The translations under genes and the position numbers were made by a program. A stretch of 38,082 bases of DNA from Muribaculaceae bacterium (GTDB lineage: Bacteria; Bacteroidota; Bacteroidia; Bacteroidales; Muribaculaceae), in NCBI GenBank assembly GCA_024400935.1, contig JAKSLZ010000021.1:1-38082 (forward strand), read 5' to 3'. This document shows positions 1 through 5,697 of this stretch, piece after piece. Under the pieces are notes generated by a model. The model ran no database searches. It saw only the letters and a program-made list of their open reading frames with translations, and had not been told where the DNA came from. Each line of letters opens with the position of its first letter. Position 1 is the first letter of the stretch.

Positions 1-85
1 CAAAGATACGATATTTCCGTGAATAATCGGACAAAAAGGTAAATAATCTTCAGTTACTTTCTGTCACACTATAATACTATAGGCA

Positions 86-172
86 GGCGGTGGAACCGCC
101 TTGTTGCATCGTAACCGGCGGACGCAGTCCGTCGGAGAGGAGCATATAAAACTAACGGCCTCGGAGGGGCCG
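86..172. repeat. cluster of three short GC-rich hairpins
   Basis: Non-coding stretch upstream of the first gene. Three back-to-back palindromes are visible: GGCGGT-gga-ACCGCC (86-100), CCGGCGGAC-gca-GTCCGTCGG (115-135, one G-T wobble) and CGGCC-N7-GGCCG (156-172). They are separated by 14 and 20 nt. I see no ORF of note in positions 1-291. Similar stem-GGA-stem palindromes recur at 1758-1768 and 12218-12228. Function unknown. Confidence 0.55.
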
Positions 173-252
173 CACTGAAATCATCGTTCATCGTTCATCA
201 TTCCCCTTTCTTTTTTCATCTTTTTTGTATTTCGTTTTTCGTCAAATTGTTG

Positions 253-260
253 TATCTTTG
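253..260 (+). promoter_or_regulatory. Bacteroidetes -7 box for the variable-protein gene
   Basis: TATCTTTG matches the TAnnTTTG -7 consensus and lies 31 nt before the chosen ATG. A TTTG at 224-227 is 25 nt upstream, longer than the ideal spacing of about 20 nt. Confidence 0.5.
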
Positions 261-291
261 TAGATTGAAAAATTATAAACATTATAAAAAC

Positions 292-1683
292 ATGAAGAAA
301 GTATTATTGTTATTTGCACTGATGAGTGCATTATGTGTCCAGTCGCTGAGTGCCCAGGTTATCAAGGGCGACATGAATGACGACGGTGTGTTTGACATCG
401 TTGACGTGAGCGAGAGCGTTAACACCCTCATTGGCGAGCGTGCCATCCAGTACATCTCGGGCGGCGGTGACCCCTATATGGTTGACAACAGCCGCGTCGT
501 TGGCACTTGGTACAAGACCAAGAGCGAGTACTTCACGCTCAATGGGGATGGTACCACCGACTATAGCGGAGCTGCTACCTATTGTTTCATGCCCTACCAG
601 GGTCGCATGGTGTTTTTCGGTGCGGACGGCGTCATAGCGTCGGCAATTAACGTGATTCTCGTGGGTGACGGTCTCATGATAACCAATGAGCTTGGAAGCA
701 GCAAATTTGAGACTTGGACCACCGAGGTTCCCGCTCAGCCAGTGGCCTCTATCCAGCTGAGCTCGACCTCACTTGAGATGCAGCCCAATGAGTTCATGCC
801 CATGCTCACTGCCACTGTATTGCCCGCTGATGCCGACAACAAAGCAGTGACATGGTCGAGCAGCAACGAGAGCGTGGTTAAGCTGTCGGGCGACCTTATC
901 CTTGCCATGGGCTACGGCACAGCCACCATCACATGCTCGGCAACCGATGGCAGCGGTGTGAAAGCCGAGTGCACGGTGACAGTGAAAAACAAGGTCGTTA
1001 CCCACGAGTACGTTGACCTCGGTCTTCCAGGTGGTGTATTGTGGGCGACCTGCAACGTTGGTGCTGACAAGCCCGAGGACTACGGTTTGTATTTCGCCTG
1101 GGGTGAGACCACAGGCTACGCTAAGGGCGAGAGCCACAGTTTCGATTGGGCAAACTACAAGTGGATGACTCCCGGTCGGAGCGGCTGGCAGTACGTGATC
1201 AAATACACCACATCCGACGGTCAGAAGAGTGGCTGCTGGTACGATGGTGACACCTACGTTGGCACTACTGTTGACGGCGTGACCTACAAGAACCTCACCG
1301 AGCTACTTCCCGAGGACGACGCCGCGACCGCCAACTGGGGTGCAGGCTGGCGCATGCCCACAAAGAAGGAGCAGGATGACTTGCGTAACAGCGCATACTG
1401 CACATGGACATGGAAGACCAACTACAACGGTTCGGTCGTTAACGGCTATGAGGTGAAGAGCAAGAGCAACGGCAATAGCATTTTCCTGCCCGCCGCCGGC
1501 TACCGCTTCGGCACGAGCCTCAGCGGCGAGGGGTCCTACGGCCTCTACTGGTCGAGTTCGCTCAGCACTAGCAACAGCTACGACGCCTACGACCTGCGCT
1601 TCAATTCGGGCAGCGTGAATTGGGACTACTACTACCGTTATGGTGGGTTCTCGGTTAGGCCTGTGCGCGTGTCTTCAGAATAA
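292..1683 (+). CDS. exported dockerin-like/Big_2/lectin-fold protein, probable DGR target
   Basis: Exported protein of 463 aa. A signal peptide occupies about residues 1-22 (MKKVLLLFALMS...SAQ). A dockerin-like calcium loop follows (GDMNDDGVFDIVDV, about 26-39), then a region resembling a small beta domain (70-150), a bacterial Ig-like Big_2 domain (about 150-232) and a C-terminal C-type-lectin/FGE-like domain of the 'Fibrobacter succinogenes major' type (about 240-460; starts EYVDLGLPGGVLWATCNVG, ends GFSVRPVRV). The last 50 residues are rich in NNC codons for Ser, Tyr, Asp and Arg at surface-loop positions, as in proteins diversified by retroelements. The ATG at 292 is chosen over an in-frame upstream TTG at 247 because it begins a clean signal peptide and lies downstream of the -7 box. 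The likely role is ligand binding outside the cell; the ligand is unknown. A MutS-like DGR accessory remnant lies downstream. Confidence 0.8.
   Translation: MKKVLLLFALMSALCVQSLSAQVIKGDMNDDGVFDIVDVSESVNTLIGERAIQYISGGGDPYMVDNSRVVGTWYKTKSEYFTLNGDGTTDYSGAATYCFMPYQGRMVFFGADGVIASAINVILVGDGLMITNELGSSKFETWTTEVPAQPVASIQLSSTSLEMQPNEFMPMLTATVLPADADNKAVTWSSSNESVVKLSGDLILAMGYGTATITCSATDGSGVKAECTVTVKNKVVTHEYVDLGLPGGVLWATCNVGADKPEDYGLYFAWGETTGYAKGESHSFDWANYKWMTPGRSGWQYVIKYTTSDGQKSGCWYDGDTYVGTTVDGVTYKNLTELLPEDDAATANWGAGWRMPTKKEQDDLRNSAYCTWTWKTNYNGSVVNGYEVKSKSNGNSIFLPAAGYRFGTSLSGEGSYGLYWSSSLSTSNSYDAYDLRFNSGSVNWDYYYRYGGFSVRPVRVSSE
1531..1667 (+). other. candidate DGR variable region (VR) with terminal invariant segment
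   Basis: Codons 414 onward read GGG TCC TAC GGC CTC TAC TGG, then AGC ACT AGC AAC AGC TAC GAC, and later GAC TAC TAC TAC CGT TAT GGT, followed by an invariant-looking GFSVRPVR tail (1645-1667). Most positions could derive from AAC codons by change at template adenines only, which is the DGR signature. Fixed codons (TGG TCG AGT TCG; TTC AAT TCG GGC) are interspersed. No second copy that could serve as the template repeat was seen in this window, so VR status is inferred from codon pattern, domain type and context. Confidence 0.65.
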
Positions 1684-1713
1684 CTGTATCTACCCCCAAA
1701 AAAGGCAAACTTA

Positions 1714-1807
1714 TTCGGTCAAAGGAAGAAATCTCAGCGGATGCGGGCACACGACGGGCACGGAGTGCTCGCGCCCGCAACGGCGGAGATTTCTTCCTTT
1801 GACCGAA
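1714..1807. repeat. long perfect inverted repeat / hairpin after the VR
   Basis: Arms of 22 bp at 1714-1735 and 1786-1807 are exact reverse complements. Inside, TGCGGGC (1742-1748) pairs with GCCCGCA (1773-1779), and a small GCAC-gga-GTGC hairpin sits at 1758-1768. The right arm is followed by ATTTTTTATAAAA, so it could act as a rho-independent terminator. DGR targets often carry a hairpin shortly after the VR that promotes retrohoming. This one starts 47 nt after the putative invariant segment and is much longer than the best-known phage example. Confidence 0.75.
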
Positions 1808-1830
1808 ATTTTTTATAAAATCATAATATT

Positions 1831-2109
1831 ATGGCAAAGTTAAAAGAAATTTTAGAAATTGAAACTCAGCGAGTTGATGATCAAACCACAATTCATTTAT
1901 TCCAAGAAGGCTCGTTTTACAGGGCTTACGAGATGAGTGCATGGTTGTTTACAAAATTTGTGTCAGATTTCAAGGTGACAAGGCGCATGCTTAAGGACAA
2001 AGAAAGTTCGTTTGTCTTCATCGGTTTCCCTGTCACGAGCCTTGAACAACGCCTGCCAGCAGGTGCTGATGTGGAGCAGAACGGGAAAAGCATCTTGTTG
2101 TGCCTTTAA
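1831..2109 (+). pseudogene. truncated MutS-like (MSL) DGR accessory protein
   Basis: A 92-aa ORF starting MAKLKEILEIETQRVDDQTT. Residues about 20-75 resemble the mismatch-recognition domain I of MutS: IHLFQEGSFYRAYE matches the family's LLFxRxGDFYExF pattern, and FIGFPVTSLEQ matches MAGIPYHAVE. MutS-like MSL proteins are a known accessory class in DGR cassettes, between target gene and reverse transcriptase. The reading frame stops after NGKSILLCL, where full-length relatives would continue, and convergent icd begins 80 bp later. The template repeat and reverse transcriptase expected downstream are absent. I read it as the 5' remnant of a deleted DGR cassette. An alternative is an intact small protein. 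Confidence 0.6.
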
Positions 2110-2128
2110 CGAAAAACCTAACGAAAAG

Positions 2129-2162
2129 AAGCCCTATAGATCGTGTGTGATCTATAGGGCTT
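2129..2162 (-). terminator. terminator of the cit-acn-icd operon
   Basis: A 14-bp perfect stem (2129-2142 with 2149-2162), GTGTGT loop. On the minus strand it is followed by the T-rich CTTTTCG. It lies 27 bp after the icd stop codon and may also block transcription coming from the plus-strand ORF at 1831. Confidence 0.85.
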
Positions 2163-2189
2163 TGATATTGGGTTATGTTCTACCTGCAA

Positions 2190-3401
2190 TTATGCGAGGC
2201 GTTTCTCGAGGTTCTTGCGGATTGCTGCGATGAAGTCGGCGCTGTTAACAGCCTTGGCCTCTACGCCTTCCATGAGGTTCACGAGGTCCTTGGTCACTGT
2301 GCCGCTGTTGAGGGTGTCGAAGCATGCGCCTTCGAGCTGGTCGCCGAAGTTCATGAGGTCCTTCAGACCGTCCTTCTCACCGCGTTTGCGCAATGCACCG
2401 CTCCATGCAAAGATGGTTGCGATGGGGTTGGTTGAAGTCTCTTCGCCAGCGAGATACTTGTAGTAGTGGCGAGTCACTGTGCCGTGAGCTGCCTCATACT
2501 CATAGTTTCCGTCGGGGCTAACGAGAACGCTGGTCATCATTGCCAGTGAACCGAATGCTGTAGATACCATGTCGCTCATCACGTCGCCGTCATAGTTCTT
2601 GCAAGCCCAGATGTAACCGCCCTTGCTGCGGATAACGCGAGCTACAGCGTCGTCGATGAGGGTATAGAAGTACTCAAGACCGCGCTTGTCGAACTCTTCC
2701 TTATACTCCTGGAACACTTCCTCGAAAATGATGCGGAACTGTGCGTCATACTTCTTAGAGATGGTGTCCTTGGTTGAGAACCACAGGTCCTGGTTAGTAT
2801 CGAGGGCAAACTTGAAGCAGCTGTGAGCAAACGAGCGGATAGACTTGTCAACGTTGTGCATGCCCTGGAGCACGCCAGCGCCCTTGAAGTTCTGGATAAC
2901 TACCTCCTCGTGCTTGCCGCTCTCGCCGTCGAAGACGAGCTTAGCAACACCGGGTTCGTCGGCGCGAATCTCCACGCTCTTGTAAACGTCGCCATAGGCA
3001 TGACGTGCGATGGTGATGGGTTTCTCCCAGTTGCGCACTGCGGGCTTGATGCTGGGCAGGGTGATGGGGGCACGGAATACAGTACCGTCGAGAATTGAAC
3101 GGATGGTGCCGTTGGGGCTCTTCCACATCTCGTGCAGCTTGTACTCGTCCATACGCTTCAGGTTGGGAGTGATGGTAGCGCACTTAACAGCTACGCCAAG
3201 GCGCTTGGTTGCCTCAGCAGCCTCGATTGTAATCTTGTCGCCAGTCTCGTCACGTTTAACGAGGCCCAGGTCATAATATTCGCTCTTGAGGTCTACGAAG
3301 GGCAGGATAAGTTCGTCCTTGATCATCTTCCACAAGATGCGGGTCATCTCGTCACCGTCCATCTCAACGATGGGGGTAGTCATTTTGATTTTTTCAGCCA
3401 T
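2190..3401 (-). CDS. icd: NADP-dependent isocitrate dehydrogenase, eukaryote-like type
   Basis: Oxidatively decarboxylates isocitrate to 2-oxoglutarate in the cytoplasm, giving NADPH and the carbon skeleton of glutamate. The protein is 403 aa, the usual length for the homodimeric type II (eukaryote-like) IDH. Visible motifs are the substrate loop KSPNGTIRSILDGTVFR (94-110), the metal-binding Asp region LIDDAVA (249-255) with KNYDGDVMSD (268-277), and the cofactor motif HGTVTRH (306-312). The position after the substrate loop reads RAPI where REPI is common in this family. It is the last gene of the operon, 55 bp after aconitase, with a strong hairpin in that gap, and is closed by the terminator at 2129-2162. 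Confidence 0.95.
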   Translation of the reverse strand: MAEKIKMTTPIVEMDGDEMTRILWKMIKDELILPFVDLKSEYYDLGLVKRDETGDKITIEAAEATKRLGVAVKCATITPNLKRMDEYKLHEMWKSPNGTIRSILDGTVFRAPITLPSIKPAVRNWEKPITIARHAYGDVYKSVEIRADEPGVAKLVFDGESGKHEEVVIQNFKGAGVLQGMHNVDKSIRSFAHSCFKFALDTNQDLWFSTKDTISKKYDAQFRIIFEEVFQEYKEEFDKRGLEYFYTLIDDAVARVIRSKGGYIWACKNYDGDVMSDMVSTAFGSLAMMTSVLVSPDGNYEYEAAHGTVTRHYYKYLAGEETSTNPIATIFAWSGALRKRGEKDGLKDLMNFGDQLEGACFDTLNSGTVTKDLVNLMEGVEAKAVNSADFIAAIRKNLEKRLA

Positions 3402-3422
3402 TTTGTTTTTCTATTTTAATGA

Positions 3423-3444
3423 GGTGCACGGAGAACCGTGCACC
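3423..3444. repeat. perfect hairpin between acn and icd
   Basis: GGTGCACGG-agaa-CCGTGCACC, a 9-bp stem with an AGAA loop, between the acn stop and the icd start. The core ACGGAGAACCGT is identical to the core of the hairpin at 16028-16047. No T-run follows on the minus strand, so it is more likely an mRNA processing or stability element, or a dispersed repeat, than a terminator. Confidence 0.7.
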
Positions 3445-3456
3445 ACGGTGATTTGT

Positions 3457-5697
3457 TTATTTTTTGTTTTTGTAGTAGTTCATGAGGCAACCGTCGGCGA
3501 GGATTTGACGCTCGTCGGCAGTGAGGTTCTGGAAGAACAGGTGGATGTCCTTGACGCCGTCCTTGGTGATAACCTTAGCATCGATTTCTTCCTTGCCTTC
3601 GAGGATAGCGGCACGCAGACCGGGGACGAAGACGAAGTCGCCGGGAACATAGTTGAACTCAGTTTCCTTAGCGATGGTGAAGGGAACGATACCCCAGTTG
3701 ATACAGTTGCTGCGGTAACGCTTGGTTGCATACTCGTAGCAGATGTTGGCGTCACCGCCCAGCACCTTCTGGCAAGAAGCAGCCTGCTCGCGAGCTGAAC
3801 CATCACCGGGACGGTTAGCGAAGACGCATGAACCGAATGAAGTGTTCTCAGCGCTTGCGCCTACCTGTGCCAGTGCATTAGCGATATTGTCGCTTACCTT
3901 GCCCTCACGACGTGCGAGGTCTTCGGCCTGGATGCGCTTGCTGATGCCCACGTACTCGGGAACGCGGCGTGACAGAGCGAACTCTGACAGCTTCAAGGGG
4001 TTAGAACGGTAGCTTGAAGTCTCGCCTGAGGGGATGAGTTCGTCGGTAGTGGTCACGGGATCGTGGATAACTGCAGCGAGCTCGATGAGCATGTTCTCCT
4101 GCAAGGGGTACATTGTGGGCCAGTCCTTGATGTTGGGACCATACTTGAGAGCCTGGCTCAGGTCTTCCTTCTCATATCCGTTGTAAACGCGGCGCTCATA
4201 GATGCGTGCGTCAAATTCATACTTCTTGTGCTCGTCGGTGTAGTCAACGTCGGTTGCCGCAGTGATCACGCCGCCGTTAGCTGCAGTAGCAGCAATAGAG
4301 CGTGCATCCATGAGTGCAACGAGCGAAATCTGACCCTGACCGGGCTTAGAACCCTCGCGGTTGGGGAAGTTGCGGGTGGTGTGGCGAATTGACAGACCGT
4401 TGTTAGAGGGAACGTCACCGGCACCGAAGCAAGGACCGCAGAATGCGGGCTTGATAACTACGCCAGCCTCAAGCAGTTCCTCAGCGATACCATTGCGGGT
4501 AGTAGCCATGAACACGGGAATTGACTGGGGATAAGCCGACATTGTGAAGTAGTCGTTACCGATAGAAGCACCCTTCATGATTGAAGCTGCTGCGCTGAGG
4601 TTGTCGTAGGTACCGCCTGAGCAACCAGCGATGATACCCTGGTCGGCCTGTACCTTGCCGTCAACTACCTTGTCAACGAGGTGGCAGTCAACCTTGTCGC
4701 CGTAGCGTTTCTTAGCGTCTTCTTCCACTGCCTTGAGAATCTCAACGGGATTAGCCTGCAGCTCGTGGATAGTGAATGCGTTGCTGGGGTGGAAGGGGAG
4801 AGCGATCATTGACTCCTGCTTAGAGAGGTCAATCTTGATCATTGCGTCATAATATGCCACGTCGCCGGGCTGCAATTCCTTGAAGTCCTGGGGACGGTTG
4901 TGGATCTCGTAGTGATGCCTAACCTCGTCATCAGTTACCCAGATTGAGCTCAAGCAAGTGGTCTCAGTGGTCATGATGTCGATGCCATTGCGGAAGTCGA
5001 TGGGCAGGTTCTTCACGCCGGGGCCAGCAAACTCAAGGACTTTGTTCTTTACGAAGCCGCTCTCAAATGTAGCCTTTACCAGTGAAATTGCAACGTCGTG
5101 GGGACCGATACCCTTGCGGGGAGCGCCTTCCAGCCATACGAGAACAACCTCGGGAGCGTTGATGTCCCAAGTGTTCTTGAGGAGCTGCTTAACGAGCTCG
5201 CCACCACCTTCGCCAACACCCATGTTACCGAGTGAGCCGTAGCGTGTGTGTGAGTCGCTACCCAGGATCATGTTGCCGCACTTAACCATTGCCTCGCGGG
5301 CATACTGGTGGATAACGGCTTGGTTAGCGGGAACGTAGATACCGCCGTATTTCTTAGCTGCCGACAGACCGAAAACGTGGTCGTCCTCGTTGATAGTACC
5401 GCCAACGGCACACAGCGAGTTGTGGCAGTTAGTCATTGCATAAGGCAGGGGGAATTTCTCAAGACCGCTGGCACGAGCAGTCTGGATAATGCCCACGTAT
5501 GTGATGTCGTGTGACATCATAGCGTCAAATGCGATGCGCATTTTCTTACCCTTGCTGCCGTCTACATCGTGGCTGCGAAGGATACCGTAAGTGATAGTTT
5601 TCTCGCGAGCTTCGTCGGGAGTGGGCATGCCTGCTGCATCCATACGAACCTCGGTTCCGTTAATGAGGTAAACACCTTGTTTGATAAGTTCTACCAT
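3457..5697 (-). CDS. acnA: aconitate hydratase (mitochondrial-type)
   Basis: Isomerises citrate to isocitrate through cis-aconitate using a [4Fe-4S] cluster. At 746 aa it has the length of the mitochondrial-type aconitases found in Bacteroidetes. The three cluster ligands are C359 (IIAGCSGGTYDN) and C420/C423 (FCGPCFGAGD). Other active-site blocks are GSDSHT (146-151), NREGS (446-450) and the C-terminal swivel domain with KRYRSNCINWG. The start is an ATG 50 bp after the citC/citG stop. It sits between the citrate-lyase maturation genes and icd, so it competes with citrate lyase for citrate from the same transcript. The symbol is generic for aconitase; the subfamily assignment is by length and motifs. 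Confidence 0.95.
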   Translation of the reverse strand: MVELIKQGVYLINGTEVRMDAAGMPTPDEAREKTITYGILRSHDVDGSKGKKMRIAFDAMMSHDITYVGIIQTARASGLEKFPLPYAMTNCHNSLCAVGGTINEDDHVFGLSAAKKYGGIYVPANQAVIHQYAREAMVKCGNMILGSDSHTRYGSLGNMGVGEGGGELVKQLLKNTWDINAPEVVLVWLEGAPRKGIGPHDVAISLVKATFESGFVKNKVLEFAGPGVKNLPIDFRNGIDIMTTETTCLSSIWVTDDEVRHHYEIHNRPQDFKELQPGDVAYYDAMIKIDLSKQESMIALPFHPSNAFTIHELQANPVEILKAVEEDAKKRYGDKVDCHLVDKVVDGKVQADQGIIAGCSGGTYDNLSAAASIMKGASIGNDYFTMSAYPQSIPVFMATTRNGIAEELLEAGVVIKPAFCGPCFGAGDVPSNNGLSIRHTTRNFPNREGSKPGQGQISLVALMDARSIAATAANGGVITAATDVDYTDEHKKYEFDARIYERRVYNGYEKEDLSQALKYGPNIKDWPTMYPLQENMLIELAAVIHDPVTTTDELIPSGETSSYRSNPLKLSEFALSRRVPEYVGISKRIQAEDLARREGKVSDNIANALAQVGASAENTSFGSCVFANRPGDGSAREQAASCQKVLGGDANICYEYATKRYRSNCINWGIVPFTIAKETEFNYVPGDFVFVPGLRAAILEGKEEIDAKVITKDGVKDIHLFFQNLTADERQILADGCLMNYYKNKK

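Follow-up and report, generated by a model that had tools for sequence, protein, structure and literature searches.

The target gene, the hairpin and the MutS-like gene beside icd

The window, by which we mean the whole stretch of 38,082 bases analysed here, is contig C55 (JAKSLZ010000021.1) of assembly GCA_024400935.1, hereafter the own genome (G000). The assembly comprises 2,843,951 bases in 140 contigs and is 77.43% complete, and a target called orphan below is orphan within this assembled part only. The first-pass annotation had placed a target gene of a diversity-generating retroelement (DGR), a hairpin and a 92-aa open reading frame (ORF) at the left end of the window, and all three are there: read 5' to 3', the target (292-1683) is followed after 30 nt by the hairpin (1714-1807), with an unbroken outer stem of 22 bp (1714-1735/1786-1807), and after another 23 nt by the MutS-like ORF (1831-2109). 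On the strand opposite to this ORF lies a gene of the isocitrate/isopropylmalate dehydrogenase family (2190-3401; Iso_dh, 183 bits), for which the name icd is kept from the earlier annotation. The features are as follows.

292-1683, plus strand: DGR-type target gene, 463 aa, with Big_2, a FISUMP/Lcl_C-like C-terminal domain and, by eye, a signal peptide and a dockerin-like segment
1477-1668, plus strand, approximate borders: variable region (VR), placed by the drop in third-position divergence and by testing its columns against two known templates; divergence from the sister VRs is greatest at its 3' end
1714-1807, no strand: two-storey hairpin of 94 nt, with outer stem, small internal loops, inner stem, asymmetric 5' loop and apical stem-loop
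1745-1776, no strand: hairpin core of 32 nt, the same in target C48 and one base off in target C62
1831-2109, plus strand: truncated MutS-like (MSL) accessory gene, 92 aa (PF01624, 22.6 bits; Pfam cut-off 20.6)
2110-2123, no strand: junction, the whole gap between the MSL stop and the flank common to the icd site of G031, the alignment with which starts at 2124

Here C62, C92 and C48 are other targets of the own genome, G031, G385, G005, G010 and G409 are genomes of the genus, with G409 in the genus of the window, and G121 belongs to another genus of the same family.

In profile searches the target protein matched Big_2 (33.7 bits), and its C-terminus, claimed earlier to have a lectin fold, matched Lcl_C (PF07603; 25.4 bits, cut-off 34.9) and FISUMP (TIGR02145; 16.5 bits, cut-off 41.65). 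The resemblance was thus recovered with both models and the cut-off reached with neither, and on these weak matches the C-terminus may be of lectin fold; the gene would then be of the lectin type, with the VR at its 3' end. The Lcl_C scores of the sister targets were 23.9 bits in C48 and 20.0 in C62 (cut-off 34.9); the FISUMP model, applied to four other targets, matched C92 and C48 under its cut-off and gave no match in G409 and C62. A PDB sequence search with the target gave no match. The target protein is probably displayed. The FISUMP-like domain forms a large family with 44 matched stretches. In this family the C48 target (L099:3197-4957), which has a clean adenine-type VR and a hairpin, carries an N-terminal Pkinase domain (147.4 bits, cut-off 31.7), and L102 (C64) is a single open frame of about 790 aa with three tandem FISUMP-like domains and a VR-like end on each.

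The 92-aa ORF had been described as a truncated relative of MutS domain I, and both parts of that description hold. Its domain match lies over the cut-off, and it aligns with residues 1-87 of the 176 of the G409 protein (51.7% identity, 89-column alignment), with the frame open throughout, so it is truncated, being 92 aa long against 176 in G409 and 166 in G121. Its assignment as an MSL accessory gene is based on the domain match together with its place behind the target, a synteny repeated in G005, G121 and G409; an MSL with PF01624 is named as a DGR accessory in the excerpted text of PMC10053308. The MSL is rare: the 92-aa protein was matched in 2 of 61 genus genomes, the own one included and G409 not being among the 61, and a query with its first 58 residues matched 3 of 397 family genomes (G000, G005 and G121), a set that may or may not include G409. 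An MSL pattern gave 97 pattern matches in genome_contigs and 27 in viral_contigs, none of them confirmed, and a search of phages and plasmids with the G409 MSL gave no result. The MSL-like ORFs of G005 are remnants of 64 and 52 aa, both directly behind FISUMP-like targets and with different cut points, and one of them is followed by what appears by eye to be an MSL C-terminus.

Complete cassettes are found in relatives. When 101 genus genomes were searched with the reverse transcriptase (RT) of G121, nine were matched at E up to 1e-8, G409 among them; the RT of G005 matched 11 of the 101 at E up to 1e-15, mostly with other kinds of RT. Contig C5 of G409 (L118/L135) holds a full MSL-type cassette, with a FISUMP-like target, a 95-nt hairpin, a MutS-like protein (176 aa, 22.2 bits), a template repeat and an RT of 396 aa with the motif GLPIGNLTSQ. 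The cassette of G121 (L079/L093) consists of a target, a short hairpin, a MutS-like protein (166 aa, 17.2 bits, under the cut-off), a bAvd-like protein (32.4 bits, cut-off 40), a template and an RT. The order given in the first-pass annotation, target, accessory gene, template and RT, is the one present in both complete relatives. In G005 and G010 the cassettes are of the HRDC type (HRDC 30.9 and 28.1 bits, cut-off 23.8) and have another kind of target. With the edges included, template and VR differ at 28 of 54 A against 2 of 149 non-A positions in G409, 28/58 against 1/128 in G121, 20/35 against 1/91 in G005 and 18/34 against 1/92 in G010. Two further observations were made in G005: a gene with an FGE-sulfatase domain (L055:238-1242, 160.5 bits) adjoins a FISUMP-like target with an MSL remnant, and the target of the intact HRDC-type cassette resembles this gene by eye. 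Compared with the MSL-type cassettes of G409 (L135) and G121 (L093), the window has the same order of target, hairpin and MSL, the same FISUMP-like kind of target and the same MutS domain I, and it is without a template, without an RT and without about half of the MSL.

Variation among the variable regions

A DNA search of the own genome with the VR gave 26 matches at E up to 10, of which the seven strongest (the window included; E < 1e-14) are all coding VRs; the coding check covered these seven, and the remaining 19 have E of about 0.001 and above. Five VRs with a common skeleton (C62, C92, C48, G031 and G385) were picked for the skeleton tests. The count over seven own VRs takes in the window and the more divergent C119, C69 and one of C64, and the own stretches C63, C113, C105, C42, C75 and C51 and others of the 44 were left out of every count. 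In a codon alignment with both templates (TR409 and TR121), at least one template reads AAY in 26 columns, which leaves 34 others.

The start of the VR is visible as a fall in silent divergence. In the five skeleton genes third-position divergence is 0.31-0.58 over every upstream window that has 80 comparisons or more; the two 15-codon windows just before the SIFLPAAG motif give 0.53 and 0.37, and from the motif on the range is 0.00-0.10. Within the VR the pairwise difference of these five at codon positions 1, 2 and 3 is 0.50, 0.53 and 0.06 in AAY columns, 0.11, 0.08 and 0.08 in the others, and 0.21, 0.18 and 0.42 upstream. The seven own VRs differ by 0.65, 0.55 and 0.22 in AAY columns and by 0.23, 0.15 and 0.30 in other columns, against 0.22, 0.21 and 0.45 upstream of six of the seven genes. 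None of 2000 column shuffles reached the observed value, either for the skeleton five or for the own seven, so the codon pattern on which the first-pass annotation had based its view of change at template adenines goes beyond chance.

The signature is cleanest in C62, C92 and C48. These three differ by 0.56, 0.64 and 0.00 at codon positions 1, 2 and 3 of AAY columns, by 0.11, 0.06 and 0.02 in the others and by 0.22, 0.19 and 0.40 upstream, and the share of third positions that differ is 5 of 177 in the VR (3%) against 140 of 349 upstream (40%). Of the 67 columns in which TR409 or TR121 has A, 44 vary, against 5 of the 110 other columns (Fisher p 4e-19, a value too small at face value, as the columns are not fully independent); for codon positions 1 and 2 only, 43 of 63 against 4 of 55 vary. 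Pairs of the three show 33-39 differences at the 69 adenine-compatible positions and none at the 108 others (0-1 by the alignment with outside templates), while upstream they show 29-40 differences over about 200 columns without A. The 69/108 split uses the A content of the sequences themselves and is partly circular, which the tests with outside templates are not. Variation at template-A columns together with silent third positions is what is expected from rewriting by one template, and on this sequence pattern one template evidently rewrote the VRs of C62, C92 and C48 and would have been active recently in the lineage of the window.

It has to be asked whether ordinary paralogous surface proteins, shaped without any retroelement by gene conversion and diversifying selection, could give the same picture. 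The FISUMP-like family is large enough for this, with its 44 stretches, and has mosaic paralogues, the middle of the gene at the icd site of G031 being like C48 by eye. However, selection on residues does not keep third-position differences down to 6% in AAY columns and 8% in the rest of the VR, against 42% upstream, when the first two codon positions diverge by 50% and 53%, nor does it put the changes on columns that hold A in the templates of other genomes. For C62, C92 and C48 this explanation is contradicted, and overall we regard it as highly improbable.

The VR of the window is less clean. Adding it to the three sisters raises the count to 51 of 67 template-A columns against 17 of 110 others, and compared with each sister it has 32-38 differences at the 69 adenine-compatible positions and 13 at the 108 other positions. 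By the alignment with outside templates it differs at 15 of 115 columns without A, with 37/201, 58/241 and 40/203 upstream against the three sisters. The earlier expectation of codons changing at adenines was thus borne out in the sisters, and in the window itself it is accompanied by non-A differences, which argue against recent rewriting by the template of the sisters. Eight of the 13 fall in the last ten codons. The 3' end of the VR is required for homing in the BPP-1 system. Most likely the VR of the window is either frozen or rewritten from a second, unseen template, and by analogy with the sisters adenine mutagenesis would have made this VR as well.

The hairpin behind the target

The full palindrome has arms of 35 nt that are 91% complementary with a spacing of 24 nt, and among the four inverted repeats listed for the window (20 nt or longer, no more than 120 nt apart) it is the longest. 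Folded as DNA, positions 1712-1809 reach -42 kcal/mol (z -10.7), and none of 200 shuffles was as good. The apical stem has 7 bp and a loop of 3 nt. The core occurs at three sites of the own assembly, 30 (window), 41 (C62) and 40 nt (C48) past the target stops and each time directly after a FISUMP-like VR, and with up to three mismatches it was absent from the other 100 genus genomes. When 11 other target ends of the own genome were inspected, the hairpin was found only at C62 and C48, and one end in C63 had a shorter inverted repeat; the ends of C92, C119, C69 and C64 are without such a hairpin, that of C92 despite its clean VR. The two-storey fold is present also in G409 and G005, and G031 retains the inner part only. 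An Rfam search of positions 1-4500 gave no match.

The outer stem differs between sites with its pairing kept. Over 35 stem positions of the window and C62, 17 differ on both sides, none on one side only, 13 are equal and the other 5 lack pairing in at least one of the two; when an arm of the window is combined with one of C62 or C48, 14-20 of 35 positions pair, against 31-32 for arms of the same hairpin. The lack of one-sided changes suggests an exchange of the outer stem as a unit, or a correction of the arms against each other, more than slow compensation.

A transcription terminator, or a scattered MITE or REP element without any tie to diversification, would be another account of the hairpin, and it could appeal to the T-run after the window hairpin and to the common repeats and the Y1 transposase gene (86.2 bits) at the G031 site. 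We consider it very unlikely: the hairpins of C62 and C48 have no T-run, the core is confined to three sites of the assembly, each 30-41 nt past the stop of a FISUMP-like VR, and the intact cassette of G409 has the same fold between target and MSL. The hairpin looks like a two-storey variant of the short one of BPP-1. Speculatively, and with the odds against it, MSL-type DGRs might find their dispersed targets by such a two-storey DNA hairpin, in which the inner core would be the address, the outer stem would be free in sequence as long as its arms match, and the MutS-domain-I protein would read the folded DNA; the window would then be an addressed target without its writer.

The search for template and RT, and known systems

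The first-pass annotation had left room for diversification in trans by an RT elsewhere in the genome. Both a DGR RT and a template were found in the relatives G409, G121, G005 and G010 and neither in the own assembly. The VR search of the own assembly, with the coding check on its seven strongest matches, found no template repeat, and queries with HRDC-type and MSL-type DGR RTs had no match in this 77% complete genome. The sole RVT_1 match of the assembly, L001:1066-2361 (C109), was rejected as a partner, since it is UG26-like (PADLOC RT_UG26, 471.6 bits) and reads AGIPFAPFLANYYL in place of IGxxxSQ, the DGR-type RT motif; it may be a defence RT. Other RTs were met in the genus, namely RTs of about 440 aa with IGLRSSQ in several genomes (L083-L089, L092), whose motif fits IGxxxSQ and some of which may be DGR RTs, and further L090 and L091 (QGGPLSP), L119-L123 (IGNITSQ) and L124 (IGNLFAQ). 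A pattern of the VR skeleton, searched for exact matches only, gave no result in viral_contigs and genome_contigs, nor did a guessed template-like sequence in viral_contigs.

The target could still be live in trans, with template and RT in the unassembled part of the genome and the VR of the window still rewritten by the template of the sisters or by a second one. We hold this to be possible and on the unlikely side. An assembly of 77% completeness leaves space for it, the sisters carry the clean adenine pattern described above, and the hairpin of the window is near-perfect, with the same core as that of C48. Against it stand the non-A differences of the window VR and their accumulation in the last ten codons, and also G031 (80% complete) and G385 (78%), which have the skeleton of the sisters and gave no match with either DGR RT. 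The joint absence from assemblies of 77, 80 and 78% would by arithmetic occur by chance in about 1% of cases, if the absences were independent and driven by completeness alone; assemblies of this kind may, however, lose mobile and repeated cassettes more often than average.

The icd site itself has a counterpart. Positions 2124-3473 and 3453-4200 of the window are 90% and 85% identical to contig C435 of G031, where a FISUMP-like target with a decayed hairpin is followed by the Y1 transposase gene and then the Iso_dh gene, with no MSL match before the latter. By this alignment two species carry a target at one and the same site of the chromosome, their VRs being different. The G031 target (L129) appears by eye to be a mosaic, its middle being nearer to C48 than to the window gene, and a repeat at 83-180 of the window has a 93% identical copy just upstream of the Y1 transposase gene of G031, with two weaker copies there on the other strand.

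Positions 292-2109 very probably represent the target end of a DGR of the MSL type, of which the target, the hairpin and the MutS-like gene up to about its middle were left beside icd. In the complete relatives the RT would, by the established DGR mechanism, copy the template repeat with errors at adenines, and the copy would replace the VR at the 3' end of the displayed lectin-like gene; the DNA hairpin just behind the gene would label the target, and the MutS-domain-I-like protein would assist. Beside icd only the target, the hairpin and the first MutS-like half would remain of this machinery. The deletion next to icd proposed in the first-pass annotation and the insertion of a partial copy would leave the same picture, and the present form presumably arose by one or the other. 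The latter would mean that target, hairpin and the 5' part of the MSL came to the icd site as a piece and that a full cassette never stood there, which is compatible with the target-end reading and which we consider a real possibility, if less than an even one. C62 and C48 consist of a target, a hairpin and about 45 bp of similar sequence (by eye), and no MSL or RT match was found beside them in the stretches examined (in C62 to the contig end, about 1 kb on), so pieces of this kind do spread. The MSL remnants of G005, with their different cuts and the one apparent C-terminus, look instead like decay in place.

The target-end reading means that scattered targets are enough to recognise template-driven rewriting when the machine itself is unassembled, and the common core with its swapped outer stem would allow a test, in a system of the MSL type, of what the hairpin and the MutS-like protein do. 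Orphan and remote targets are already known, as far as the excerpts of PMC4891356 and PMC7517822 go, and an RT-first metagenome survey states, in the excerpt of PMC8144416, that remote targets escape detection. A literature search made up largely of listings and abstract beginnings and weighted to open access brought up neither an MSL remnant beside an orphan target nor a two-storey hairpin of this kind. According to the excerpted text of PMC4891356, Treponema denticola has targets away from the core cassette or in isolates without it, as here, and in the cyanobacteria of PMC7517822 (likewise an excerpt) remote targets lie away from the core cassette, as here. In contrast to the window, which has kept an MSL fragment and in which no template is seen, T. 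denticola has an HRDC accessory gene and known templates (PMC4891356, same excerpt). A hairpin is mentioned for a subset of DGRs in the excerpt of PMC3521204, and the window has one after its VR. As in the BPP-1 phage DGR (PMC3240598, in excerpt), this is an inverted repeat after the VR, and the finding there that the structure of the stem matters and not its sequence agrees with window-type stems that differ in sequence and yet pair. The hairpin of BPP-1, however, has a GC-rich stem of 7-10 bp with a 4-nt GRNA loop at 4-34 bp from the VR (same excerpt), a form from which that of the window departs with its 94 nt, two storeys and a common inner core.
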